This document shows, piece after piece, positions 1,911 through 35,552 of a stretch of DNA of 35,552 nucleotides (positions within the stretch are counted from its first letter, which is position 1; each line of letters begins with the position of its first letter). Source of the stretch: a virus. The notes under the pieces are model-generated. The model was not told where the DNA came from. It saw only the letters and a list, made by a program, of their open reading frames with translations, and did no database searches. The position numbers and the translations under genes were made by a program. The stretch covers positions 1-35,552 of IMG/VR virus record IMGVR_UViG_3300028835_001661, one strand, 5' to 3'.

Positions 1911-3416
1911 TTAAACCTCCCTGAACGCCAGATTCGTATTGAAGTATCGGAAAGAGCGGCCGCCTATCGCGACGGTATCCATAATGCTGAACGCCGGCCC
2001 TGATAGCCTGTGAACGTACCTAGCGATGCCGATAGGAGTGGAAAGCCTTATGAGTGGATACTGCCAGACGACATTCGTTACGCCGTCATACAAGTTGGGC
2101 GAGGAATTGACATAATAATCTGTCATCTCTCCCAGGGAAAGGCCCCAGCTTCCATTATGCGCTCTCAAAATCACCGGGGTCGCGGTTCCCACAACTCCGA
2201 CTTTATACGGTGTGGCATAGCTTTCGGGGTCGGGCATAAACGTCTGAAACATTCCCCCCCAGAACCAGTTATAAACACCGGCGACCTCTAACGTCATAAA
2301 AAAGCAATCGCGATCCGCCGTGAGGTAGTAGTAGGTCGGGAAGTCTCCGGGTAGTGCGTCTATGGTCTGATAGGCCGTCCCGTGTGATGGGACTGTATCA
2401 TCCGTCGCTCTGATCTCATAGCGATCCTGATCTTCCTCATACCGATAATGAATGTATATGTCGTCTATGCCGCTCTCACCGGGAGAGTTCCAAAAGTGGT
2501 CAATGGGAAAAGCAGGTGTCGGGTTTGCAACCTTCGTCCATCCTATAGCCGTGAGGAAAGCTGATATTTTGCTCTCAAGGTCGGTCTGACCGGTCGCGAC
2601 CCCGTTTGCATGGGCGAAATGAGCGCCCTCAAGCTGCCCTACTGGCACATTGCCGCCGCTTCGCATACACCACCGCATCGTACCCGTACCCATGACGATC
2701 CACGTCGAGGTTGCGCCTGCGTATCCCGTCGTGATAATGTCCTCCGGGTTTACGCCGGCGAGGACGTTGATCCGGCCGGATACGTCCGTCGGCTGTCCCA
2801 CGATTTTGTCATAGGCTACCTCGTCCTCCTTAAGAGCAAAGACCGCCACCGAATCGTCAAGGGGGTCTTTTATGTAGCTATGGGTCAACTGCGATGCTCT
2901 GATGGCCTGATCCCATGCCCCGTCGTCCGCTTTGAGGACGTAGCCATTTCTGATCTGATCCATCATGTGCAGGCCGATAGCGACCATCTGCTGTTCTTCA
3001 TCTACAGTCAGCGAAAAAGGTTCCACGATCCCCACGTAGCAGCCTGTATATCCGGCTCCGGCTTTGAAGTTCAGGATCACCTTGTCCTTATCCGCGCCTA
3101 TCCAATACTGGAACGGGACCGCACCCGCGCCCGGGGCCTCCAAATGTCCCACGTATACCGTCGTCTCCGTTGTGAAGTGAGTTCCAGCAGCGTCGTCCTG
3201 GACCCTGTACCATACGCGTCCCAACGTTACAGCATCCCTCCGAAAGCGGATAAATAACTTCGTTCTGCCGCCGAGTTCTCCTGGAGAAGAAAAGACGACG
3301 GTTGTTGTCCCTGTCCCTGATTCGACCGTCCATCCTATCGCCACCAGACCGGCCTCTAAGAGGGCAAACATGTTCGGCACGTCGTTTGCGGTTCCCGTCA
3401 CGTAGTTATAAGCCAT
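1911..3416 (-). CDS. Large duplicated virion-like protein, unknown family
   Basis: A 501-residue protein, beta-rich and aromatic-rich, with no membrane segment. Its two halves look like an internal duplication. Residues ~13-60 (LLEAGLVAIGWT, then SSPGELGG, then LFIRFR) correspond to ~290-335 (KISAFLTAIGWT, then NSPGESG, then IYIHYR). Each unit is followed by a Y-R/E-I/V-x-D-D segment and a Y-W-I-G-A-D-K-D or Y-L-T-A-D-R-D strand. The A-I-G-W plus SPGE pattern resembles hypothetical phage structural proteins I have seen, but I cannot name the family. The ATG follows a strong GGGGGAGGTCTGC site. It is flanked by the beta-helix protein and by small beta-rich proteins, which fits a fibre, spike or baseplate-like component. 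Confidence 0.75.
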   Translation of the reverse strand: MAYNYVTGTANDVPNMFALLEAGLVAIGWTVESGTGTTTVVFSSPGELGGRTKLFIRFRRDAVTLGRVWYRVQDDAAGTHFTTETTVYVGHLEAPGAGAVPFQYWIGADKDKVILNFKAGAGYTGCYVGIVEPFSLTVDEEQQMVAIGLHMMDQIRNGYVLKADDGAWDQAIRASQLTHSYIKDPLDDSVAVFALKEDEVAYDKIVGQPTDVSGRINVLAGVNPEDIITTGYAGATSTWIVMGTGTMRWCMRSGGNVPVGQLEGAHFAHANGVATGQTDLESKISAFLTAIGWTKVANPTPAFPIDHFWNSPGESGIDDIYIHYRYEEDQDRYEIRATDDTVPSHGTAYQTIDALPGDFPTYYYLTADRDCFFMTLEVAGVYNWFWGGMFQTFMPDPESYATPYKVGVVGTATPVILRAHNGSWGLSLGEMTDYYVNSSPNLYDGVTNVVWQYPLIRLSTPIGIARYVHRLSGPAFSIMDTVAIGGRSFRYFNTNLAFREV

Positions 3417-3950: not shown

Positions 3951-4580
3951 CTATCTGTAGATACCGTTTGCCCTGTCGATCAGCGTCCTGAATCGCGGGT
4001 AACGGTATCTGATAACGCTGTCAACGTATTCCTGATTTCTGAACTTGCCTCGGTCGATCTGCGGCGTTCCTGCGTTGTACCCTGAGACGGCCCACGATAT
4101 GGGGTCGAATTGATCCATAAATCGCTGCCTCTGCCAGTCCAGGTATTGAGCGCCATAGCGGATGTTGATCGAGGGATTGAGCAGGAGATCGGGGTCGTCA
4201 CTGAAGCCCAACATTTGAGCGGTCGTAACGCGTATCTGCATTAAGCCGTATTCACCAACAGCGCCGCGAGCTGCGTAGTCGCCGCCGCTCTCTTTTGAGA
4301 TTATAGCAGCGATAAGCGCCGCGTCAAGGTTGAACCGCTCGGCGTTTGCCTCGATCTCCGTGAGGTAGGATAGCACGCGGGCCTCGGTGGACGTTATAGG
4401 CTCCGGGATCATCTCCGGGTGTTCCCGTAGAAGCTCCGCGACCTCCTCATTAGTCCTCCACCGCTCGTTTACGCTGTCCCAAAAGAGATGGTGTAGCTCG
4501 TCCGGGATGAAGCCCTGCGGACGTGAGCGCAGATAGAGTATGAACCCGCACCCGATGACGATCCAAAACAACTTGATCAC
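3951..4580 (-). CDS. Lytic transglycosylase (SLT domain) with N-terminal membrane anchor
   Basis: A 209-residue protein that should cleave the MurNAc-GlcNAc bond of peptidoglycan to give 1,6-anhydro-MurNAc ends. Residues 2-17 are a hydrophobic segment that could anchor it. The SLT signature is clear from about residue 75: I-S-K-E-S-G-G-D with the catalytic Glu, then G-E-Y-G-L-M-Q-I, then L-L-N-P-S-I-N-I-R-Y-G-A-Q-Y-L, then S-G-Y-N-A-G. All conserved motifs are present. In a virus such an enzyme usually opens the cell wall during genome entry, and in conjugation systems it opens a path for the channel; no conjugation genes are seen here. Residues 25-70 are charged and unassigned. Confidence 0.93.
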   Translation of the reverse strand: MIKLFWIVIGCGFILYLRSRPQGFIPDELHHLFWDSVNERWRTNEEVAELLREHPEMIPEPITSTEARVLSYLTEIEANAERFNLDAALIAAIISKESGGDYAARGAVGEYGLMQIRVTTAQMLGFSDDPDLLLNPSINIRYGAQYLDWQRQRFMDQFDPISWAVSGYNAGTPQIDRGKFRNQEYVDSVIRYRYPRFRTLIDRANGIYR

Positions 4581-4630: not shown

Positions 4631-5146
4631 CTAGACTACAGGAAGCCAAAGAGTTGATACGGCTACCGTGACGTTGCCCGGACCCGCGACTACAACGTAG
4701 AGGTCTTGGGAGGGGGTAAGATAGAGTTTCATGCTCTTTTCCGGCTCGATGAATGGTGAATTGTCCGAAGAGTTCACCGTACCCGACCCGTAGAACAGGA
4801 ATTGAGCGTTATCGAGGTTTGTCACCAGGATCGGGATCGTGTAGCTGTACGGGTTCTCTGCCAGCACTTGCCGGGAAGTGCCTATACTGGCAGTTCTGTG
4901 ATCCTTCGGGAAGTTGGCAAGCTGTAACCTCTTAAGCTCTACCAGCCGGCCGATGGGAGTATAGGCGACCCCGGGGCCGCTGATAGGGGCTTCAAGTTCC
5001 GGGGCTAGTTCCTGCCGCTCGATAACGTCTATCAGCTTATCCAGCCTGAACGCAATCTGCCTCGCGGCCGCACAGATAACCTCAGCCTCCGAAGTTCCCA
5101 TATCCGGCCATTCACCGCGCTGTATCCTCGCTAGAACATCGTTCAT
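4631..5146 (-). CDS. Hypothetical virion-like protein
   Basis: A 171-residue protein. The N-terminal ~45 residues look helical (ARIQRGEWPDMGTSEAEVICAAARQIAFRLDKLIDVIERQ). The C-terminal ~90 residues look like a beta sandwich, with alternating hydrophobic strands (YTIPILVTNLDNAQFLFYG, MKLYLTPSQDLYVVVAGP, VTVAVSTLWLPVV). It starts at an ATG after AAGGAAGGGGG and is closely spaced with the 5168-5554 gene. The strand pattern resembles the neighbouring small structural-type proteins. No family is recognised and no enzyme motif is visible. Confidence 0.7.
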   Translation of the reverse strand: MNDVLARIQRGEWPDMGTSEAEVICAAARQIAFRLDKLIDVIERQELAPELEAPISGPGVAYTPIGRLVELKRLQLANFPKDHRTASIGTSRQVLAENPYSYTIPILVTNLDNAQFLFYGSGTVNSSDNSPFIEPEKSMKLYLTPSQDLYVVVAGPGNVTVAVSTLWLPVV

Positions 5147-5167: not shown

Positions 5168-5554
5168 TTAAACCGTCGGTGTAGGGAGTCTCCGCCCGAT
5201 GAATAGCAAGTACAACGTATCTGTCGCGCCTCCGTTGTTAGTGGCCTCCACCATGATAGCCGAACCCTTATCGAACGTATACGGTTCGGGAAGCTCGAAG
5301 GGCTTTTGATCCACGTCACCAACGAGGGCATTTATGGGAACCTCGTCGGAACTGAAAAACTGACCGGCTCCGTTGTCACTGATCCTGATCTGCCAGTCTC
5401 CGTTCGTGGCGTCCCAGTAAGCCCCTAGCCTCTCCCACCTGAACGGATAACTCCCGATGGGCTTCGCCGGGCTTGTGCTGGTTGCCGACACCGTCGCGGC
5501 TGTCAACGCGACCTCGATCATGTAGAAATAGCCGCGCCCGTTCTGCTGTCCCAT
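5168..5554 (-). CDS. Small beta-rich virion-like protein
   Basis: A 128-residue protein. I placed the start at the ATG at 5554 (MGQQNGRGYFYM) because it follows AAGGAGGTTTATCTT; the frame stays open upstream to 5596 but that extension lies inside the 26-bp repeat. It carries W-Q-I-R-I-S-D-N-G-A-G-Q-F-F, a loose match to the W-x-N-L-x-I-R-L-S-x-D-G segment of the 3429-3713 protein, then a P-F-E-L-P-E-P-Y strand and I-M-V-E-A-T-N-N. It probably belongs to the same structural family. Role unproven. Confidence 0.7.
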   Translation of the reverse strand: MGQQNGRGYFYMIEVALTAATVSATSTSPAKPIGSYPFRWERLGAYWDATNGDWQIRISDNGAGQFFSSDEVPINALVGDVDQKPFELPEPYTFDKGSAIMVEATNNGGATDTLYLLFIGRRLPTPTV

Positions 5555-5630: not shown

Positions 5631-6284
5631 TTATCTCAGAGGTCTGACTTGCAGAACGTCATAGATCACGTAGACATACCCCGTTGCCGAGAGCGTTACT
5701 AACGTGTAGAATTTTATGTCGAACCTGAACGTGCGGTTTTCCGCGAGGTAGACCGGGATCATCATCCTGGGATTGGCCCCGGGGGATGGTACGCCGTTAG
5801 TGATAACGCCCACTGTCGCGAGGTTCGTGGTTGTCTGCTCGTTGCCATACGTGCCATACGCTGACGGGAAAGTAACCACCGGACCAGACTTGATCCTCAA
5901 GTCGTCGTCCATGATGGCCTCCGCGTATGCCCCGGCACAGAACAAGCGGATGTCTGCCTCGTCCATATCAGCTTGCGGCATCACGTTCATGCGATAGACG
6001 ATGGCCTCTTGACCTTCTGGCAAGCGTGACGACTGGCTCATGTTCGTATCCTGCCGGGTTTTCCCCTGGATGTCCCGGAAGTACACAAAATCTGTCCCGG
6101 CTGGTATGGCCGCCGGCGTGATCTGGACGCGGTCATATATGACATCCTGTCTCATATCCGCGAATTTGCGGACGCCGACCCCCTCGATGAATAATTCGCC
6201 CGGCTTGCCCGTTGGGGATATTCCCGGAGGGAAAACCTGACCTAGAGTTGACATAAAAGCTGCGCTGTACTGTCCTCCACGCAT
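5631..6284 (-). CDS. Candidate major capsid protein (jelly-roll-like), unproven
   Basis: A 217-residue soluble, beta-rich protein. The start is the ATG at 6284, after AAAGGAAA; an in-frame TTG lies two codons earlier. Its middle reads D-V-I-Y-D-R-V-Q-I-T, then T-D-F-V-Y-F-R, then K-T-R-Q-D-T-N-M-S-Q-S-S-R-L-P-E-G-Q-E-A-I-V-Y-R-M-N-V-M. The pattern of a strand, a D-T-N-M turn, L-P-x-G-Q-E and another strand resembles segments I associate with metagenomic capsid-like proteins, but I cannot confirm it. It lies mid-module, next to the basic and membrane proteins, and has the most elaborate leader RNA in the window (four hairpins at 6300-6376), as expected for an abundant product. At ~24 kDa it would suit one jelly roll. 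Other structural roles remain possible. Confidence 0.5.
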   Translation of the reverse strand: MRGGQYSAAFMSTLGQVFPPGISPTGKPGELFIEGVGVRKFADMRQDVIYDRVQITPAAIPAGTDFVYFRDIQGKTRQDTNMSQSSRLPEGQEAIVYRMNVMPQADMDEADIRLFCAGAYAEAIMDDDLRIKSGPVVTFPSAYGTYGNEQTTTNLATVGVITNGVPSPGANPRMMIPVYLAENRTFRFDIKFYTLVTLSATGYVYVIYDVLQVRPLR

Positions 6285-6299
6285 TTGCAAATTTCCTTT

Positions 6300-6376
6300 C
6301 TCTTTTCAGAGGGCATCGCGTTCGCGCGATAGGTGGCCTATGCCACTACCCTTTTTCGTTACGGGCGTATCGCCCG
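6300..6376 (-). promoter_or_regulatory. Leader region with four consecutive perfect hairpins
   Basis: The 137-base gap before the capsid candidate holds four perfect inverted repeats in a row: 6362-6376 (CGGGCG/CGCCCG, 3-nt loop), 6333-6346 (GTGGC/GCCAC, 4-nt loop), 6315-6330 (ATCGCG/CGCGAT, 4-nt loop) and 6300-6311 (CTCT/AGAG around GAAA on the minus strand). The last lies just before the AAAGGAAA ribosome binding site. They may stabilise the mRNA, mark a processing site, or partly stop transcription from upstream. None is followed by a clear U-run on the minus strand, so a simple terminator is less likely. Confidence 0.6.
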
Positions 6377-6421
6377 GTCTGCTGGTGTAACGCAAGAATT
6401 AGTGGTGATCCCGGCGGCGCT

Positions 6422-7033
6422 CTACATGGCCCAAGCCGGATTCTCCTGCTGTACCTTCTGTAGATACGGGTCCTGGAACATCCATTCCGGGAGCGTACCC
6501 GCCGGCACAGTGACACCGAGTTCGTTCGAGGCTTTTACTGGCGCTCTCCGACGACCAGCGACCGCGCCTGAAGCCCCCGGCGTCAAAAGCGGCCCGACGA
6601 TCCTCAACCCGTTTACTATGACTGGACCCAGAGCGACGGCCGCTCCCAGGTCTGGCTGTTTCGCAAACCGAGCGACGGCGTAGCCGCCGAGCAGGCCCAC
6701 GATTACCTCCAGCGCCATTATCCACTTGGAATCTGCGGCGATCTTGATCATGGGGGCGAGGTAAGCGACCGCCTTACCAGCGACTATAGCCCCACCAACC
6801 GCGACGGCTCCCGTCAGTAGCGTTCCCTTAAGCTGCTCGATGTTAAACGGCAGAGCGCCAAGTTCACCAAGACCCACGCCGCCGCCTGAGAAATTCGCGC
6901 ACCTCATGACGTACTTCCTGTGTGCTTTGCTCCACACGCGCTTTTTGCGCGTACAGTGTCTACGTCCTAACACAGAACTACCTCCTCTCAAAGTCGGTAT
7001 GCCCGAAAAGAGCAAAACCTCTTCTACTGGCAT
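6422..7033 (-). CDS. Membrane protein with basic N-terminal region
   Basis: A 203-residue protein. Residues ~23-48 are strongly basic (RRHCTRKKRVWSKAHRKYV and on). From about 68 there are three or four hydrophobic stretches rich in Gly and Ala (LLTGAVAVGGAIVAGKAVAYLAPM, WIMALEVIVGLLGGYAVARF, LGAAVALGPVIVNGLRIVGPLL). It starts at an ATG after GGAGGTAAAC, 30 bases after the basic protein gene. A positively charged head plus membrane spans would suit a protein linking a virion membrane to DNA, as in membrane-containing phages, but that is inference. No family is recognised. Confidence 0.7.
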   Translation of the reverse strand: MPVEEVLLFSGIPTLRGGSSVLGRRHCTRKKRVWSKAHRKYVMRCANFSGGGVGLGELGALPFNIEQLKGTLLTGAVAVGGAIVAGKAVAYLAPMIKIAADSKWIMALEVIVGLLGGYAVARFAKQPDLGAAVALGPVIVNGLRIVGPLLTPGASGAVAGRRRAPVKASNELGVTVPAGTLPEWMFQDPYLQKVQQENPAWAM

Positions 7034-7063: not shown

Positions 7064-7450
7064 CTAGCGTTTGCGCTTCCGGGTCGTTTTCTTCCTAGTC
7101 GTTTTCCTCTTCGTCGCTTTCTTCCTCGTTGGCTTCCTTTTCGGTGTCGAAGGGTCACGCGTACATCGTCGGATAGGGACGAATTTTCCGTCTTTGTCCC
7201 TGCAACTCTTACCGTCGAACGTAAAGCCGAGGCTGCTCCTACTGAGCGTTCTACTTCCTCCACCGGAAAAACCGGGAAGCATTTTCAGGGCCTGCGCTGC
7301 TGATACGATAGGAATACCCAGACCCGTTAGCGTCTTAGGATTCACGAAGCGGAAAACCACTTTGCCTCCACGCTTCTTTATCCAGCATCCGGCCTTCCCA
7401 CCTTTTACACGTTTACACGCGATAGCGTTTGCTCTGGTGACTCTTGCCAA
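7064..7450 (-). CDS. Highly basic protein, putative DNA-binding virion protein
   Basis: A 128-residue protein whose last ~30 residues are almost only K, R and T, with a repeated KRKTTRKK/KKTTRKRK pattern. The N-terminal part is also basic and has cysteines at C12, C22, and near 85 and 97. The start is probably a TTG at 7450, after GGGGGATC; no ATG or GTG fits better. The composition resembles nucleic-acid-condensing proteins such as adenovirus core proteins or bacterial H1-like proteins. Placement between the membrane protein and the candidate coat pair suggests genome condensation in the virion. No family can be named. Confidence 0.7.
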   Translation of the reverse strand: MARVTRANAIACKRVKGGKAGCWIKKRGGKVVFRFVNPKTLTGLGIPIVSAAQALKMLPGFSGGGSRTLSRSSLGFTFDGKSCRDKDGKFVPIRRCTRDPSTPKRKPTRKKATKRKTTRKKTTRKRKR

Positions 7451-7481: not shown

Positions 7482-8132
7482 TTACAAAATGATCGAATGT
7501 AGGCAAGCCGCGATTATCTCAACCAGTCGCGCGGATGCCATACTATTATCCACGTAGATATTCGTCGCGTCCGCCGCGCTGCCAAGCGTGACCTCACCGA
7601 AAAGATCGGGATGTCCTGACAGGTCGCTGTAAACCGCGTTCACATTCGCCGCGTCCAGATCGGTCGTGCCTCCGGTGAAATTGGCCGCCGTCGGGTTTAC
7701 CGAAATCTGAGCAACGACACAGGAATTCGCCGGGGTATCTGGCAGAACGACGCCGCCAAGTGTCGCGGCCTCTGTGCCGATCCCGATCTGCATAGCCCCG
7801 GCCGTGTCAATGCACAGCAGAACTATGTTATACATATCCTGGGTGCAATCGAACCCGGTCAGGACGAAAAAGTTATCAGTGATCCCCTTAGCGTAGTGAA
7901 CGCCCGCGACAAGATAAGCCGCCGCGACCGCGACCTTTGCGGTGGTTTTCGTTGTCCCGATAGCCGCGCCGATAGCGGTAAAACACTGTGCCAGAAGCGC
8001 CTTTTTCGGGCCTGTCAGGTCGTTCTTCTCCACGATAAAAATCCAGTCGGGCGTTCTCTCCAGGCCGTGAACCACTACCTGATCGCTTGCCAGGGCAAGA
8101 ACGTTGACCGACAGCTTCGCTATTTGTGACAT
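7482..8132 (-). CDS. Putative coat/virion protein, paralog A
   Basis: A 216-residue protein, about 60 percent identical by eye to the 219-residue product of 8189-8848. Shared segments include VHGLER(T)PDWIF-VEKN-LTGPKKAL, then AQCFT, then GVHYAK, then MYNI-LLCIDTAG-MQIGIGTE, then PDLFGEVTLG, then YVDNSMASAR and AACLHS. It is beta-rich and alanine-rich with no signal peptide. It starts at an ATG after AAGGAGGCTTTAGA. Tandem paralogs of equal size inside a virion-type module suggest abundant structural subunits, for example two coat proteins or a coat plus a decoration protein. I do not know the family. Confidence 0.75.
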   Translation of the reverse strand: MSQIAKLSVNVLALASDQVVVHGLERTPDWIFIVEKNDLTGPKKALLAQCFTAIGAAIGTTKTTAKVAVAAAYLVAGVHYAKGITDNFFVLTGFDCTQDMYNIVLLCIDTAGAMQIGIGTEAATLGGVVLPDTPANSCVVAQISVNPTAANFTGGTTDLDAANVNAVYSDLSGHPDLFGEVTLGSAADATNIYVDNSMASARLVEIIAACLHSIIL

Positions 8133-8188: not shown

Positions 8189-8848
8189 TTACGCAATAAG
8201 GGAATGAAGGCAAGCCGCGATGACCTCGACGTTACGCGCAGAGGCCATGCTGTTATCAACATACACATTGGTAATGTCCGCCGCTTTTCCTAGCGTGACC
8301 TCTCCAAACAGGTCGGGATGACCTCCCAGGTCGGAGTAAACCGCGCCCGGTACAATTACACCATCGTCCAGGTCGTCAGTACCTCCGACAAAGTTCCCGG
8401 TTCCTGTGGGATTCACCACGACCTGAGCAACGACACACGAATCTGCCGGCGTATCTGGCAAAACAACCGCGCCCAACGTCGCCCCTTCAGTACCGATCCC
8501 GATCTGCATATCCCCGGCCGTGTCGATACACAAAAGACAGATGTTATACATGGCATTTGTGACATTGAACCCGGTCAAATCCCAAAAGTCGTCAGTCGCG
8601 GCTTTCGCGTAGTGAACGCCGCCGACTGTGAACGCCGCCGCCGCAACGTTCTGGATGTCCGTTTTCGTTGTCCCGATTGCTGTTGCGACATCAGTGAAAC
8701 ACTGTGCATAGAGCGCCTTCTTCGGGCCTGTCAATTCGTTCTTCTCCACGAGGAAAATCCAGTCGGGGATTCTGACGAGGCCGTGAGGTACAGCCTGATC
8801 CGCCGCGAGGGCGGCTATAGTTGCCGTCAGCTTCAATATTTGTGACAC
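8189..8848 (-). CDS. Putative coat/virion protein, paralog B
   Basis: A 219-residue paralog of the gene just downstream, differing mainly by small inserts (GTGNFVGGTDDLDDGVIVPG near residue 150). It starts with GTG (8848) after GGAGGTTTTAGC, where the partner uses ATG. Upstream sequences of both genes are also similar (GGAGG, TTTAG, then the start and TCACAA), so the duplication included the ribosome binding site. The central beta-rich segments are the best conserved. Role as for the partner: structural by context, unproven. If the 5631-6284 protein is not the capsid protein, this pair is the next best candidate. Confidence 0.75.
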   Translation of the reverse strand: MSQILKLTATIAALAADQAVPHGLVRIPDWIFLVEKNELTGPKKALYAQCFTDVATAIGTTKTDIQNVAAAAFTVGGVHYAKAATDDFWDLTGFNVTNAMYNICLLCIDTAGDMQIGIGTEGATLGAVVLPDTPADSCVVAQVVVNPTGTGNFVGGTDDLDDGVIVPGAVYSDLGGHPDLFGEVTLGKAADITNVYVDNSMASARNVEVIAACLHSLIA

Positions 8849-8860
8849 GCTAAAACCTCC

Positions 8861-9256
8861 TTACTTCCTGCCGCCGATCCTTGACTTCGCGGCGGTTATC
8901 ATTAGCTGCGTAACGAACCACATCCCAAAGACGGACGCGGCTATGAGTATGAAAGACTGAGCGTTAAGCCCGAATTTGAAGCCTCCCCCCCCCTCAACGT
9001 CCCCACCGCAGACCAGAGCGGCCTCCTGCGGTGACATATTATACGGCGCGTTGCTGTAGGTCTGGACGCACTTAAGATAGTCAGACTTTTCCTCCCGTTT
9101 TTCGTGGAACTGCCAGAGCGTGCCTCCCCCCAGGATAAGCGCGCCACCGGCAATTATCGGGATCAAGAGTGGGATACCTAACTCCCCATTTCCCGGCTGT
9201 GAAAGTATCGGCCCTGCTGCCTGTGGCAGAGTCATCGCGGATCTGCTGAATATCAT
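8861..9256 (-). CDS. Two-span membrane protein
   Basis: A 131-residue protein with membrane segments at ~28-48 (IPLLIPIIAGGALILGGGTLW) and ~100-120 (FILIAASVFGMWFVTQLMI), the second followed by a basic tail. Between them is a loop with two cysteines (K-C-V-Q-T-Y ... S-P-Q-E-A-A-L-V-C), like the cysteine-pair motif in the proteins at 9269-9529 and 16470-16727. The ATG follows AGGAGGGCTCGGCA. It is probably a virion membrane or assembly protein. No family recognised. Confidence 0.7.
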   Translation of the reverse strand: MIFSRSAMTLPQAAGPILSQPGNGELGIPLLIPIIAGGALILGGGTLWQFHEKREEKSDYLKCVQTYSNAPYNMSPQEAALVCGGDVEGGGGFKFGLNAQSFILIAASVFGMWFVTQLMITAAKSRIGGRK

Positions 9257-9268
9257 TGCCGAGCCCTC

Positions 9269-9529
9269 CTAGAAAAAGACCTTGCCGGCGATAAGCCCGG
9301 CGGCCAGCCAGAAAAGCGGGTGACTGTAGAGCGGCTTCTGTGCCGGCGGTGGACAGAGGAAGGGTACAAAGCCGAGCATCCTCTGACATTCCTCCTGTGA
9401 CAACAGATCCGCGCACGTATTAAAAGCGGCGTCGAAAGCCTCCTGATAAGTGACTCTCGGCCCGGCTTCCACTTGCCCCAGAACGCCGTTAAAAGCAGCG
9501 AGGGCCGTCTGTCCTCTTGCTAATGTCAT
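9269..9529 (-). CDS. Small protein with cysteine pair and C-terminal membrane segment
   Basis: An 86-residue protein. Residues 1-17 (MTLARGQTALAAFNGVL) resemble the N terminus of the 9971-10447 protein. Residues ~29-50 contain A-F-N-T-C-A-D-L-L-S-Q-E-E-C-Q-R-M-L, close to A-Y-D-L-C-V-E-T-F-G-Q-A-R-C-R-Q-M-L of the 16470-16727 protein. The C terminus (PLFWLAAGLIAGKVFF) is a membrane span. The start overlaps the stop of the upstream gene by 1 base (TAATG). Likely a membrane or virion component; function unknown. Confidence 0.7.
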   Translation of the reverse strand: MTLARGQTALAAFNGVLGQVEAGPRVTYQEAFDAAFNTCADLLSQEECQRMLGFVPFLCPPPAQKPLYSHPLFWLAAGLIAGKVFF

Positions 9530-9960
9530 TAAACCTCCTCCTCCTCACTGTAGGCCTCCGGTTCCGACGGCTGCCTCCGTCTCTGTGTCCTCACAGGTTG
9601 CTGACCTCCCAGGGCGATGAGGGCAAAAACAGCGACCCCCATAACTACCAGGAGCCACTTATTGATCCCCTTTTCCACTTCCACGCCGTTCGGGATGGGT
9701 GGCAGTATTTCTTCTTCTTCCTCTTCCATTTCCGTTATAACCGGCGTCGGGTAGATCGGGATATACTTCCCATCATAGTCTATCTCGTCACGCGGCCCGA
9801 CGACAACAATCGCGTCCTCTGGGCCATCTGGTGGAACTAACAGCCCGTCGGGTATTTCACCATCCTCACCATCCGGGACCGGCGGCGCCATTGTGACAGT
9901 TATGCCGCGTGCCAATAGCTCATTCTCAATGTCCGTGTTGGTGATTACTCCGAACTGCAT
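9529..9960 (-). CDS. Acidic single-span membrane protein
   Basis: A 143-residue protein. Residues ~25-100 are proline-rich and very acidic, including a run of Glu near residue 80. A membrane span follows at ~100-118 (WLLVVMGVAVFALIALGG), then a short R-rich then E-rich tail. Starts at an ATG after GGGAGGCCGAT. The layout of a long Pro/acid stalk plus C-terminal anchor is shared with the proteins at 31083-31910 and 33581-34282. Likely an anchored stalk or virion protein; no named family. Confidence 0.7.
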   Translation of the reverse strand: MQFGVITNTDIENELLARGITVTMAPPVPDGEDGEIPDGLLVPPDGPEDAIVVVGPRDEIDYDGKYIPIYPTPVITEMEEEEEEILPPIPNGVEVEKGINKWLLVVMGVAVFALIALGGQQPVRTQRRRQPSEPEAYSEEEEV

Positions 9961-9970
9961 ATCGGCCTCC

Positions 9971-10447
9971 CTAGAAAATCTTGCCGCTTTTCATCACGAT
10001 AAAAGCGAGACCGCCAATGACTATCCAGCCCCAGGTCGGAATTGCACCAAGCCCGGCCTGCGCGGGGATGGGTAAGCAAGCCCCGTCGGGCGTCGGATAG
10101 AACCCCTCTGGACACTTCACGCCAGGGACAACCGCTCCGCCGCCGAACTGCTGACTCAATAATGCCTCCCAGGTCGCGGCCGACCGGTGCTGAGGGTCTG
10201 CCTTGCTGATCTGTGAGGCTATAGCTGCGACCTCGCTCTTCTCCAACGTAACAACGCCGGATTGATCCTTCGCTCCCTTGACAGCCTCATACGCTGACAC
10301 GCCGAGCCCGATCCCGCTTATCACCCATCCGGCGATCTGCATCGCCAGGGACCAGTCGAACCCCAGACCGGCCCGGCTTCCTGAAAACGTCATCACCGGG
10401 TCAAAGGCCTTGAGCGCCGTCTGTCCTACTTTCCTCTCGATTACCAT
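9971..10447 (-). CDS. Membrane protein with shared N-terminal motif
   Basis: A 158-residue protein. The start is the ATG at 10447, after GGAGGGAGGTTCGT; the frame extends upstream but overlaps the previous gene. It opens with MVIERKVGQTALKAFDPVM, closely matching the N termini of the 9269-9529 and 10482-13067 proteins. A hydrophobic segment lies at ~33-52 (SLAMQIAGWVISGIGLGVSA), a cysteine loop at ~110-125 (K-C-P-E-G-F-Y-P-T-P-D-G-A-C-L) and a second span at the C terminus (WGWIVIGGLAFIVMKSG). Probably a virion membrane protein. Confidence 0.7.
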   Translation of the reverse strand: MVIERKVGQTALKAFDPVMTFSGSRAGLGFDWSLAMQIAGWVISGIGLGVSAYEAVKGAKDQSGVVTLEKSEVAAIASQISKADPQHRSAATWEALLSQQFGGGAVVPGVKCPEGFYPTPDGACLPIPAQAGLGAIPTWGWIVIGGLAFIVMKSGKIF

Positions 10448-10481: not shown

Positions 10482-13067
<2,586 letters not shown>

Positions 13068-13110
13068 CACACGATCTCCCATTGCTGGAAAATCGCGAAC
13101 GCCAGGGAAC

Positions 13111-13182: not shown

Positions 13183-13788
13183 TCAGTAAACCTCATATAA
13201 CCGTGAATCTTCGATCCCGGCCGCCTCATATCCGACCGGGTTCTCTGCCTGTGTAGTGTCAAACGCGATCCATTGTTCCGGGTCGTGTGGTGGCAGGCCA
13301 ACGACCAAATAGATATGATGAAAGTCGGGTTGACCCTCCATCCGAATAACTTTGATCATGATAGGATAGCCGACGGCCTGCAGTACCGCGCCGCCCAGGG
13401 CTGCCATGTCGTCACAGTCGCCCATCGCAAGTTGTAGCGTTCGCTGTGGGGTTCTGTACGTGTCGATCCCGAAGGTGTCAAGAGTGTAGCGGACGTTTGC
13501 CGTTATACGGTTCGCGATCTGTGTGACTTCTCCAAGCCAGTTCCGGGGTTCCACACACCAGCGGCCGGCGCATCTATCGGTCAAGGCCTGCGCGGCGAAG
13601 ATGTGAATATCCTCAGAGACGCGCCCGATCTGGATGTTCTTCGCGATGAGTTCCACGCGATCATCCGTCGAGCTAACCGTCGTCAGCTTCCCCCTCATCG
13701 TGCCGAGAGTTTCCATCGAAGCGGTCATGCTCTTCCGGCGTTCCGGTGGGAACCTGTTTGGATTCATCTGTAGAATCGTCAACCTCAT
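13183..13788 (-). CDS. Transglutaminase-like cysteine protease-fold protein, paralog 1
   Basis: A 201-residue protein with the transglutaminase-core triad: Cys in M-G-D-C-D-D-M-A (~residue 124), His in F-H-H-I-Y-L-V-V (~156) and Asp in W-I-A-F-D-T (~178). The fold includes proteases and amidases as well as cross-linkers. A second member is encoded at 31932-32510 (G-D-C-D-D-V-A, A-H-A-Y-A-E, H-W-L-N-L-D). Both lie in the virion-type module, so processing or cross-linking of virion proteins, or attack on peptidoglycan, are the natural ideas. The start is uncertain: ATG at 13788 has GAGAGG before it but overlaps the upstream gene by 116 bases; ATG at 13728 is an alternative. Confidence 0.8.
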   Translation of the reverse strand: MRLTILQMNPNRFPPERRKSMTASMETLGTMRGKLTTVSSTDDRVELIAKNIQIGRVSEDIHIFAAQALTDRCAGRWCVEPRNWLGEVTQIANRITANVRYTLDTFGIDTYRTPQRTLQLAMGDCDDMAALGGAVLQAVGYPIMIKVIRMEGQPDFHHIYLVVGLPPHDPEQWIAFDTTQAENPVGYEAAGIEDSRLYEVY

Positions 13789-16911: not shown

Positions 16912-17379
16912 TTAGTAGTCGCCAAGGCCTAGATTTTCCGGCCTGGGATAGGGAGACGTACCTTTGGTAATCGTCCATACAGCGTCAACGTCATCATCAT
17001 CCAAGTCGCCTGTAGCTGTAGCTTCAAAGACGTTAGGATCAGGCACAGTCACCTCATACCTGTACCGGACATCTCCATCAGGCTCGAAGCCAATATCATC
17101 AAACCCGGCGGCAGGAACATCCCATTTTCGAGGTGAGGAATTAGGCGCACCGAGTGGATTTGGCGTACAAACCATATAAACATCGTCCTCAGCCCTGTAC
17201 GACTCTTCGCAGGTGCGGATCGCCGCCAGATTCCCGTTCGCTTCTGAAACCTTAGACTTCATAGCGAACTGCATAAACGCCGGGATCGCGATGGCGGCCA
17301 GAATAGCGATAATAGCGACGACTATCATCAATTCGACCAGAGAAAAACCACTTTCTTTTCGCAGCTCAAACATTTTCAT
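16912..17379 (-). CDS. pilA: Type IV prepilin, major-pilin type
   Basis: A 155-residue class IVa prepilin. A short charged leader MKMFELRKESG is cut after Gly11, before F-S-L-V-E; Glu5 of the mature chain is present. The hydrophobic N-terminal helix (LMIVVAIIAILAAIAIPAFMQF) is canonical. The following SKVSEANGNLAAIRTCEESYRAEDDVY resembles deltaproteobacterial PilA proteins. The C-terminal part has two cysteines (~52 and 66) and an acid loop D-L-D-D-D-D-V-D-A-V-W-T-I. It needs a host prepilin peptidase and assembly machine, as none is encoded here. It stands alone, with its own perfect sigma-54 promoter (17523-17539), AGGAGG site and terminator, which indicates capture of a host gene with its control region. 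Confidence 0.93.
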   Translation of the reverse strand: MKMFELRKESGFSLVELMIVVAIIAILAAIAIPAFMQFAMKSKVSEANGNLAAIRTCEESYRAEDDVYMVCTPNPLGAPNSSPRKWDVPAAGFDDIGFEPDGDVRYRYEVTVPDPNVFEATATGDLDDDDVDAVWTITKGTSPYPRPENLGLGDY

Positions 17380-21990: not shown

Positions 21991-22758
21991 GTGGCGGAGC
22001 CAAAGTCAACAAAGACATTCGCATCATTTTCAGGCGGGAAGGACAGCCTCGCGATGATCGTGCGAATGGCAGAGATGAAGGAGCGGATCGACGCTGTGAT
22101 CTTCGCGAATACCGGTTGGGATTTCCCGGAGATGCTCGCCACTGTAGAGCAAGCGGAGAGGTCTCTGCCCTTCGATTTTGTTATCGTGGACCTAAAGGCG
22201 CGCTTTGATCACTGGTTCTATGAATACAAGACCTGTCGGGGAAGGAATGAAGGCAAGAGACAGGGCTTCCCAGGGCGAATGATGCTCTGGTGCAACCGGG
22301 ACAAGGGGAGGGCGATAGACAGGTACATGAAGGCTCAAGGCGGCGGGATCAACTTGATCGGCATGGCGGCCGATGAAAGACACAGGGCAGAGCGGCCGGA
22401 GATACACAGGGAGGGGAGGATCGTCCGGAGGTTTCCGCTCATAGAGTGGGGCTGGACGGAGCAGATGTGTCTTGATTATTGCTACTCCAACGGCTATGAT
22501 TTCGGCGGCTATTATGACAATTTTAAGAGAGGCGGCTGCTTCTGCTGTCCTCAACAACCGCTATCGTCCCTGAGAACGCTGTATCAATTCTACCCGGAGC
22601 TATGGGCGAGGCTCAGGGAGATGCAAGCGAATAGTCATATAGCATTCCGCTCCAACGGTGACACCGTTTACGACCTGGAAAAGCGGTTCGCGTGGACGGA
22701 GAAGATCGACGAATTGACGTGGGCTGACGGCCATATCCCGCGCGGAGAGGTAGAGTGA
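21991..22758 (+). CDS. PAPS-reductase-family (PP-loop ATP pyrophosphatase) protein
   Basis: A 255-residue protein. The PP-loop S-F-S-G-G-K-D-S-L-A (~12-21) binds ATP or an adenylyl compound, followed by F-A-N-T-G-W-D-F-P-E as in PAPS reductases. C-x-x-x-x-E/K and W-C-N-R-D-K-G segments follow, and near the end is G-G-C-F-C-C-P-Q-Q, a cysteine cluster common in the phage members. Enzymes of this family reduce or transfer sulfur. In phages they are linked to sulfur metabolism or to modification of DNA or tRNA; no dnd partners are present here. Start GTG at 21991 with AGGAGG 8 bases before it. Confidence 0.88.
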   Translation: MAEPKSTKTFASFSGGKDSLAMIVRMAEMKERIDAVIFANTGWDFPEMLATVEQAERSLPFDFVIVDLKARFDHWFYEYKTCRGRNEGKRQGFPGRMMLWCNRDKGRAIDRYMKAQGGGINLIGMAADERHRAERPEIHREGRIVRRFPLIEWGWTEQMCLDYCYSNGYDFGGYYDNFKRGGCFCCPQQPLSSLRTLYQFYPELWARLREMQANSHIAFRSNGDTVYDLEKRFAWTEKIDELTWADGHIPRGEVE

Positions 22759-31931: not shown

Positions 31932-32510
31932 TCAAGTGTAGCCGTCTGTGATAGTCTCGATCCAGCCGTCAGGATAGACGCCGTATTCGTCCCGCGCATC
32001 GAACAGGAAATCGCCAGGGTGTTTTCGACGAGCCAGGGAGTCGAGGTTCAGCCAGTGACCCCCTACAGCGTCAACGTGACAGTATATCCTTTCGATAGCA
32101 GGATAATAATGCCGGAGATTCGGCAGAATGACAGAACTCACATAGTCGGCCTTGCCGATATAGCATTCGGCATAGGCGTGTGCGCCCAGGAAAGCATACG
32201 CGGTCACGACGCGAGCTGTACCCGCGACGGCCTCCACTATCGCAGCCATGAGGACGGCCACATCGTCGCAATCACCCACAAGCCCGGCCTCTATGGTCTG
32301 GCTTGCAGGGGAAACATACTCGAACCGGTGCGGGTCCTCGACATATTTGAAGTCGTCACTTACGCGCTGCCAGAGTAGACAAATCTGCCCGACGCTAAAA
32401 TTGCCGGGAACGGCCGCCGCTACAGACACCGCGAAGTTCCGCGTTTTGGGATTTGTGGGGTCTATGGCGGCGCTGATCTGCTTTGCGACCTTCTGTCTGG
32501 CAGCCGTCAT
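31932..32510 (-). CDS. Transglutaminase-like protein, paralog 2
   Basis: A 192-residue protein; ATG 32510 lies about 9 bases after AAAGGA (a GTG six codons earlier is an alternative). The triad is Cys in G-D-C-D-D-V-A-V-L (~95), His in G-A-H-A-Y-A-E (~123) and Asp in H-W-L-N-L-D (~165). G-D-C-D-D is shared with the protein at 13183-13788. As an enzyme of this fold it may be a protease, amidase or cross-linker. Having one member at each end of the leftward block suggests separate substrates. Confidence 0.85.
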   Translation of the reverse strand: MTAARQKVAKQISAAIDPTNPKTRNFAVSVAAAVPGNFSVGQICLLWQRVSDDFKYVEDPHRFEYVSPASQTIEAGLVGDCDDVAVLMAAIVEAVAGTARVVTAYAFLGAHAYAECYIGKADYVSSVILPNLRHYYPAIERIYCHVDAVGGHWLNLDSLARRKHPGDFLFDARDEYGVYPDGWIETITDGYT

Positions 32511-32524
32511 CTGAGTTGATCCTT

Positions 32525-33190
32525 TCACCTGCTACGCTGTAGGATAACAGCCAGAACAACGACGCCGGCGAGCAGCCACGCGAGGGTCTCTGTGTCTATC
32601 TGCCCTCCCGGCTTCGTTATTGGTTCTGGCTCCACCACCGGCTCGTCCTCTGGGAACACAAGTTCAAACGGCTCATATTCGCCTGTCTCCGGGCTACGCC
32701 TGATCCCGTTCAGCATCAAGATAGTCTCCGCCGCGATCTCGATGGGTATGTCCGGGAGGCTTCTTCTGAATTCGTGAAAGGTCTTTGCTACTGCATAGGC
32801 CTCCCGGTTGATCTCCTCTTTGCTCATTCCCGGCTTATATTTTTCCAGAACGGCAATGACGGCATATCCGACGGTCTCTGAATACGGAAAGCGCAGGAAG
32901 CCCGGCTCGTCTGAGATCATCCTGTAGAGCGTTGACCGGCTACTGGTCCGGCGCTTCCTGATTAAGCCGGCGGCCTCCAGTTCTGCATAGACGCGCGCCC
33001 GGTAGCTTTTCATGCTCCAATAGCCGATCAAGCCTCCCAGCGCGGCCCCGATTCCTGCCCCGATAGGCCCCCCTATGCTGAAGCCTGTATAGGCCCCTGA
33101 AGCAGCGTTCACCGCGATCCCGATTTTCTTGTTCCTCATGCCGTCAGAAAGTGCCTCAAACTGCGCCCGTCTTGCCTCTGCCTCTGTCAT
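32525..33190 (-). CDS. Membrane protein with glycine-zipper N terminus
   Basis: A 221-residue protein. Residues ~24-58 are a glycine-zipper membrane stretch (A-S-G-A-Y-T-G-F-S-I-G-G-P-I-G-A-G-I-G-A-A-L-G-G-L-I-G-Y-W), a type that inserts in or permeabilises membranes. A soluble helical part (~60-165) follows. The C-terminal tail (P-I-T-K-P-G-G-Q-I-D-T-E-T-L-A-W-L-L-A-G then a span) matches the tail of the 31083-31910 protein. Start overlaps the previous stop by 3 bases. It could act in membrane fusion or genome entry; unproven. Confidence 0.7.
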   Translation of the reverse strand: MTEAEARRAQFEALSDGMRNKKIGIAVNAASGAYTGFSIGGPIGAGIGAALGGLIGYWSMKSYRARVYAELEAAGLIRKRRTSSRSTLYRMISDEPGFLRFPYSETVGYAVIAVLEKYKPGMSKEEINREAYAVAKTFHEFRRSLPDIPIEIAAETILMLNGIRRSPETGEYEPFELVFPEDEPVVEPEPITKPGGQIDTETLAWLLAGVVVLAVILQRSR

Positions 33191-35326: not shown

Positions 35327-35552
35327 CTATGCGAAAAACACAACGACCTGATACCTTGCGTTTGATCCGGGCGTCTTGTTCTTGAGAGCGATTCCCCGCG
35401 CCGACGCCCTGTGAAACCACGACCCCAAATCCTTGTCAGGATCGACTTCTTTTTCGTCCTGGTAGTTGACCCCATCCGGTGACAATTTGAACGTCAGACC
35501 ATTATTCCACGTCTGGACCCAGATAGCCTCGCTCTGCTCCAAATTCGGGAAC
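35327..35552 (-). CDS. Virion-like beta-rich protein, C-terminal part (continues at 1-299)
   Basis: Stop at 35327. The frame runs off the right edge and, through the 144-bp overlap, is the same gene as 1-299. The full protein has 126 residues. This part carries W-N-N-G-L-T-F-K-L-S-P-D-G, EVDPDKD and the NKTPGSNARYQ end shared with the protein at 3429-3713. Confidence 0.8.
   Translation of the reverse strand, partial: FPNLEQSEAIWVQTWNNGLTFKLSPDGVNYQDEKEVDPDKDLGSWFHRASARGIALKNKTPGSNARYQVVVFFA
35409..35552. repeat. 144-bp terminal overlap identical to 1-144
   Basis: The last 144 bases equal the first 144, base for base. Because the reading frame that spans them is intact, this is best read as assembly overlap of a 35,408-bp circle. 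A linear genome with 144-bp direct terminal repeats is the alternative. Confidence 0.95.

Follow-up and report, generated by a model that had tools for sequence, protein, structure and literature searches.

The protein encoded at 5631-6284 on the minus strand of the window (the whole 35,552-nucleotide stretch analysed, IMG/VR record IMGVR_UViG_3300028835_001661) is probably the single-jelly-roll (SJR) major capsid protein (MCP) of an undescribed tailless bacterial virus. An SJR capsid protein is now the best explanation of the extreme conservation of this protein, of a gene cassette shared with the tailless phage SSIP-1, and of the predicted fold of a homologue with its matches to capsid proteins. 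The first-pass annotation had likewise read the protein as a candidate SJR capsid protein, closer in size to the small capsid proteins of P23-77/SH1-type viruses; the first part of that reading gains support here, and the proposed kinship gains none.

The genome and the candidate gene

An exact 144-bp repeat at both ends of the window indicates that the genome is complete and circular, with a length of 35,408 bp. Two relatives were identified, IMGVR_3300024432_000937 (G1) and IMGVR_3300028610_002683 (G2), whose end repeats measure 127 and 144 bp, respectively, and whose records open the same map elsewhere. The minus-strand structural half is syntenic in the three genomes, and the plus-strand half is mostly different. 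Genes for peptidoglycan enzymes (SLT and M15) and for a prepilin with an N-terminal methylation motif suggest a bacterial host. The type IV prepilin-like gene (16912-17379) is found in the window only among the three genomes and is possibly host-derived; a search for relatives of its product for host assignment found none. The features discussed below are as follows (G4 is the 70-kb contig 3300014202_000530, and G3-type denotes a second group of contigs described in the next section).

1-144, no strand: exact 144-bp end repeat, left copy; its right copy lies at 35409-35552
3951-4580, minus: SLT lytic transglycosylase, for lysis or entry (Pfam SLT E 6e-19; G4 homologue E 7e-19)
4631-5146, minus: next protein downstream in the block, beta-rich and, from position and pattern, a possible SSIP-1 gp48 counterpart
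5168-5554, minus: all-beta, gp47-like structural protein that accompanies the candidate in the cassette (G4 and G3-type matches)
5631-6284, minus: candidate single-jelly-roll major capsid protein, 217 aa (conservation, reciprocal HMM matches, fold of the homologue)
6285-6421, minus: 137-nt leader or intergenic stretch with a ribosome site only; RNA structure unsupported
6422-7033, minus: protein with hydrophobic stretches and a basic N-terminus (compared by position and pattern; the top HMM matches are weak)
7064-7450, minus: strongly basic protein (30% K+R); by inferred function, a candidate virion protein for DNA condensation
7482-8132, minus: first tandem paralogue of a conserved ~217-aa virion-cluster protein, perhaps decoration or spike
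8189-8848, minus: second tandem paralogue of the same ~217-aa protein (85-aa positional relative in G4, E 0.022)
8861-10447, minus: four small proteins, three with predicted transmembrane helices, conserved in relatives
13183-13788, minus: transglutaminase-like protein homologous to gp34, a virion protein of SSIP-1 (sequence and profile matches)

The candidate ORF starts with an ATG at 6284, preceded by an AAGGAAA ribosome site, and its product has 217 residues, a mass of 23,968 Da (24.0 kDa) and a pI of 5.2, with the motifs DTNM (residue 79) and LPEGQE (residue 88); the coordinates, size and both motifs given in the first-pass annotation are accurate. The gene is real, as relatives with 79% and 76% identity occupy the same position in the two other viral genomes. 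At these identities the candidate is the best conserved among the 26 genes common to the three genomes, which fits a major capsid protein and not a spike. Direct searches with the candidate found nothing beyond G1 and G2, and gave no relatives in Pfam, PHROGs, PDB sequences, plasmids, described phages or GTDB genomes. Matches to CD81 in PDB (E 0.1-0.9) were attributed to chance. A diverged second copy of the capsid family (27% identity) lies at 12388-13017 on the minus strand, in the non-structural half of G2, and none is present in the window or G1.

The stretch in front of the gene had been described as an elaborate leader RNA. Its folding was no better than expected from shuffled sequences (z = -0.84; 39 of 200 shuffles equally good), nothing apart from the ribosome site is kept in G1 and G2, and Rfam gave zero matches in the window; this description is not supported. 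The basic and membrane proteins noted beside the candidate are, in contrast, borne out: the product of 6422-7033 has hydrophobic stretches and is basic at its N-terminus, K and R make up 30% of that of 7064-7450, and transmembrane helices are predicted for several of the small proteins. The tandem pair at 7482-8132 and 8189-8848 is highly conserved, and its HGLxxxPD start and HSII end recur in the 85-aa protein of G4. The 866-aa protein of 10482-13082 contains repeated segments of ~100 residues and a long linker of Pro-Thr repeats, the ends being conserved and the linker variable. An hhalign similarity of this protein to P23-77 VP20 was rejected, as both contain low-complexity sequence rich in proline and threonine and the aligned region shifted upon realignment.

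Distant homologues, the shared cassette and the predicted fold

A scan with the gp34-type transglutaminase family identified five further contigs, SSIP-1 among them. The transglutaminase-like protein at 13183-13788 matches SSIP-1 gp34 by blastp (E 1e-9), hhalign (96.6%) and HMM (E 4e-12); a second transglutaminase-like protein of the window is encoded at 31932-32528. Contig G3 (IMGVR 3300030707_000046), one of the five and a ~35-kb circle, carries a 256-aa protein that was the top match in G3 when searched with candidate profiles (E 0.0012 and 9e-5). Fifteen relatives of this protein were found, on contigs mostly of 32-39 kb, and the profile of the 15-member family returned the candidate as the single match in the window (E 0.0017) and likewise in G1 and G2 (E 5.8e-5 and 4.7e-5), with the next-best matches at E 0.36-0.79. 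The candidate and the 256-aa family thus appear linked by reciprocal best HMM hits, a link of moderate strength for the window protein at E 0.0017. G3 and the 15 other contigs share with the window a homologous protein of 250-260 aa and its cassette; they differ in the low identity of the homologue (~23%) and in their remaining gene content. These 16 IMG/VR contigs, mostly 32-39 kb, form an undescribed group with membrane-MCP-gp47-gp47 cassettes. A limited literature search found no paper describing this virus group; one on Methylomirabilis phages was set aside, as its genomes encode terminases or tail proteins.

A fixed cassette consisting of a membrane protein with a basic N-terminus, the candidate and a gp47-like beta protein spans several distant virus lineages. 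In the window the order is 6422-7033, the candidate, 5168-5554, 4631-5146 and the SLT gene. The corresponding order in G4 is 62701-63339, 63420-64064 and 64585-65382, followed by SLT, while 14 G3-type loci have a membrane protein, the homologue and two gp47-like proteins, and SSIP-1 has gp44, gp45/gp46, gp47 and gp48. The product of 5168-5554 matches that of G4 64585-65382 (HMM E 7e-7) and the G3-type downstream gene g47b (hhalign 89.6%, E 1.9e-6), and the HMM of G3 g47 matches SSIP-1 gp47 (E 6e-6) and G4 (E 4e-17). The product of 6422-7033 is the positional equivalent of SSIP-1 gp44, of G4 62701-63339 and of the gene upstream of the G3-type homologue. Judged by these comparisons, homology of the cassette is significant for gp47, and the membrane-protein link rests on position and pattern. 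For 4631-5146 a significant match was sought and none was found. The 214-aa protein of G4 63420-64064 has a candidate-like pattern and is linked by position and pattern, with scores that are not significant. As an observation apart, G4 (IMGVR_3300014202_000530, 70.5 kb) combines the cassette with an FtsK-like ATPase and sugar-modifying genes; if the contig is complete, it would represent a tailless phage of large size.

The SSIP-1 equivalents of the cassette genes, and gp34, are annotated as virion structural proteins. Aligned with the candidate family, gp45/gp46 gave the best of 35 window alignments, covering 49 columns only (P 0.0043). The score of 25.8 was not reached in any of 150 shuffles (mean 13.1, sd 2.3), and the alignment falls at the position expected by eye.

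Structure prediction by AlphaFold2 from the three close relatives gave low-confidence strands for the candidate (pLDDT 34). The G3-type 256-aa homologue, modelled from 19 sequences including the candidate, gave a jelly-roll-like strand order (pLDDT 62, pTM 0.59, confident beta core with pLDDT 73-91), with strands at 46-52, 61-63, 99-110, 127-132, 135-141, 203-205, 211-216 and 241-254, and the low-confidence strands of the candidate sit at corresponding places. When the homologue model was compared with PDB by Foldseek, the SPV1 capsid protein ranked first (E 0.016, probability 0.66, TM 0.26-0.35) and the FLiP penton protein third, and capsid proteins of PBCV-1, IBDV, a circovirus, a nodavirus, SH1, P23-77 (VP16), a papillomavirus and an iridovirus were also among the top 50. 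No match reached E 1e-3, and the top matches, with TM-scores of 0.26-0.40, include unrelated beta proteins. Many jelly-roll capsid proteins of CRESS-DNA, parvo-like and picorna-like viruses were matched in a viral structure library. The structural check proposed in the first-pass annotation gave, for the homologue, a jelly-roll-like strand order with capsid matches that are individually non-significant, and, for the candidate itself, a model of too low confidence to show a fold. A single jelly roll is the probable fold of the candidate, as read from the model of a homologue of ~23% identity.

A jelly-roll protein in the structural block could also occupy the vertices, with the tandem pair or the gp47-like protein forming most of the shell. 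The tandem pair is highly conserved too, and the third rank of the FLiP penton protein agrees with a vertex role. We nevertheless regard a penton function as unlikely, because the tandem-pair family was undetected in G3 and SSIP-1 and is represented at most by the 85-aa protein in G4, whereas for the candidate, the most conserved protein, homology or position points to a counterpart in every lineage that was examined closely. The failure to detect the pair in G3 and SSIP-1 equally disfavours it as the MCP. Conservation further bears on the proposal that the candidate is a beta-sandwich of the virion surface, such as a spike or receptor-binding protein, and no part of the shell. Beta-sandwiches are common in virion spikes and the gene lies within the structural block, but spikes are typically the least conserved virion proteins, as stated for alphasphaerolipoviruses (PMC5332951), and the candidate is the most conserved protein; we consider such a role improbable.

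Comparison with known viruses and the packaging of DNA

By gene content, SSIP-1 is the nearest described virus, and the best structural match, a weak one, is SPV1. Like SSIP-1, the window appears to represent a tailless virus with circular DNA, a collinear cassette (hydrophobic gp44, gp45/gp46 of ~210 aa, gp47 and gp48), a homologous gp47 (via intermediates), a transglutaminase-like gp34 and a PAPS reductase. SSIP-1 differs by its genome of 43.8 kb, by two paralogous proteins in the capsid position (gp45 and gp46, blastp E 1e-12) where the window has one, and by the structural ATPase gp40, where no ATPase is recognisable in the window.

The viruses P23-77, SH1 and HHIV-2 (Helvetiavirae) resemble the window in a possible SJR capsid, in being tailless with membrane proteins, and in the PAPS reductase of P23-77. 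These features, the size of the candidate and the weak structural matches of the homologue to SH1 and P23-77 VP16 would suit a virus of this type with the candidate as its small MCP. However, the candidate family showed zero sequence or profile similarity to the MCPs of P23-77, SH1 and HHIV-2, and a profile of all relatives gave nothing against P23-77, SH1 and the contigs G5 and G6. Moreover, the Helvetiavirae have two adjacent MCP genes and an FtsK/HerA-type ATPase, whereas the structural block contains one member of the capsid family in each of the three genomes, although a second, non-homologous capsid protein may be present, and the ATPase was not detected despite working controls. As far as the genes reveal, the defining features place the window outside the P23-77/SH1 group, and we consider membership very improbable; the kinship proposed in the first-pass annotation lacks MCP similarity, another MCP of this family within the structural block, and the ATPase alike. 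The reading as a diverged tailed phage, with a head of HK97 type and the candidate as accessory head protein, can practically be dismissed, since the match of the long protein 1911-3416 to a PHROG annotated as a phage structural protein stands against the absence of a terminase match from a complete genome and of any portal or HK97 capsid family match among roughly thirty window proteins scanned.

The window lacks a recognisable DNA-packaging motor. No credible Walker A motif was identified in the window or G1 among segments of at least 60 residues in all frames; the few matches to the Walker A regular expression lie in the basic protein or in ORFs of other frames, and the one in G2 belongs to a small protein that is unrelated. 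Profiles of FtsK_SpoIIIE, HerA/DUF87, terminase and Zot were silent in the window, G1, G2 and G3. As a control, the FtsK and HerA profiles together detect, with weak scores, the ATPases known from P23-77, SSIP-1 and SH1; PF01580 and PF01935 were weakly matched in P23-77 and PF01935 in SH1, and both were silent in the window, G1 and G2. The wider group is not uniform, as weak P-loop matches were seen in 4 of the 10 G3-type contigs tested. A motor too divergent for recognition from sequence may exist.

A packaging ATPase is stated to be absent from SPV1 and FLiP (PMC8812541), and the DNA of SPV1 is a coiled nucleoprotein (PMC8459092). The Portogloboviridae (SPV1) resemble the window in a circular genome, an SJR capsid, which is probable for the window, the lack of a recognisable packaging ATPase, a glycosyltransferase gene and few replication genes (PMC8459092, PMC8812541). 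They differ in having hyperthermophilic archaeal hosts and genomes of ~20 kb, whereas the host of the window seems, from indirect indications, to be bacterial. By its gene logic the window is most portoglobovirus-like, though probably infecting bacteria, to judge from its peptidoglycan enzymes.

Proposed assembly and evolutionary setting

With the candidate as SJR major capsid protein, its single eight-stranded jelly roll would form capsomers, and these an icosahedral shell around an internal membrane, which would carry several of the small transmembrane proteins. The upstream protein 6422-7033 may link the shell with both the membrane and the DNA, the latter perhaps condensed by the basic protein 7064-7450. 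As the searches revealed no recognisable packaging NTPase, we propose that shell and membrane probably close around the condensed nucleoprotein, the DNA not being pumped into a finished shell, and the same may happen in the ATPase-less SPV1. Release would occur by lysis with the SLT and M15 enzymes.

To our knowledge, an SJR capsid without a recognisable packaging motor has so far been known only in one archaeal virus family. More tentatively, this bacterial lineage of ~35-kb circular tailless viruses might have kept the predicted ancestral state of the two-jelly-roll viruses, with one SJR capsid gene, no packaging ATPase and the genome as condensed nucleoprotein, and SSIP-1, in which the capsid gene is duplicated and an ATPase is present, might represent the next step of the same lineage; this is a possibility to which we give rather less than even weight. 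A bacterial group with these features would make the model of such an ancestor testable, and one would have to ask how 35 kb of DNA can be enclosed when there is no motor. SSIP-1, a near-orphan among tailless phages, is now tied to about twenty environmental viral contigs through the window, G1, G2 and the 256-aa family. The window also contains a PAPS-reductase-like gene at 21991-22758; PAPS reductases are annotated in P23-77 and SSIP-1 too, and appear as a recurring accessory gene of tailless phages.
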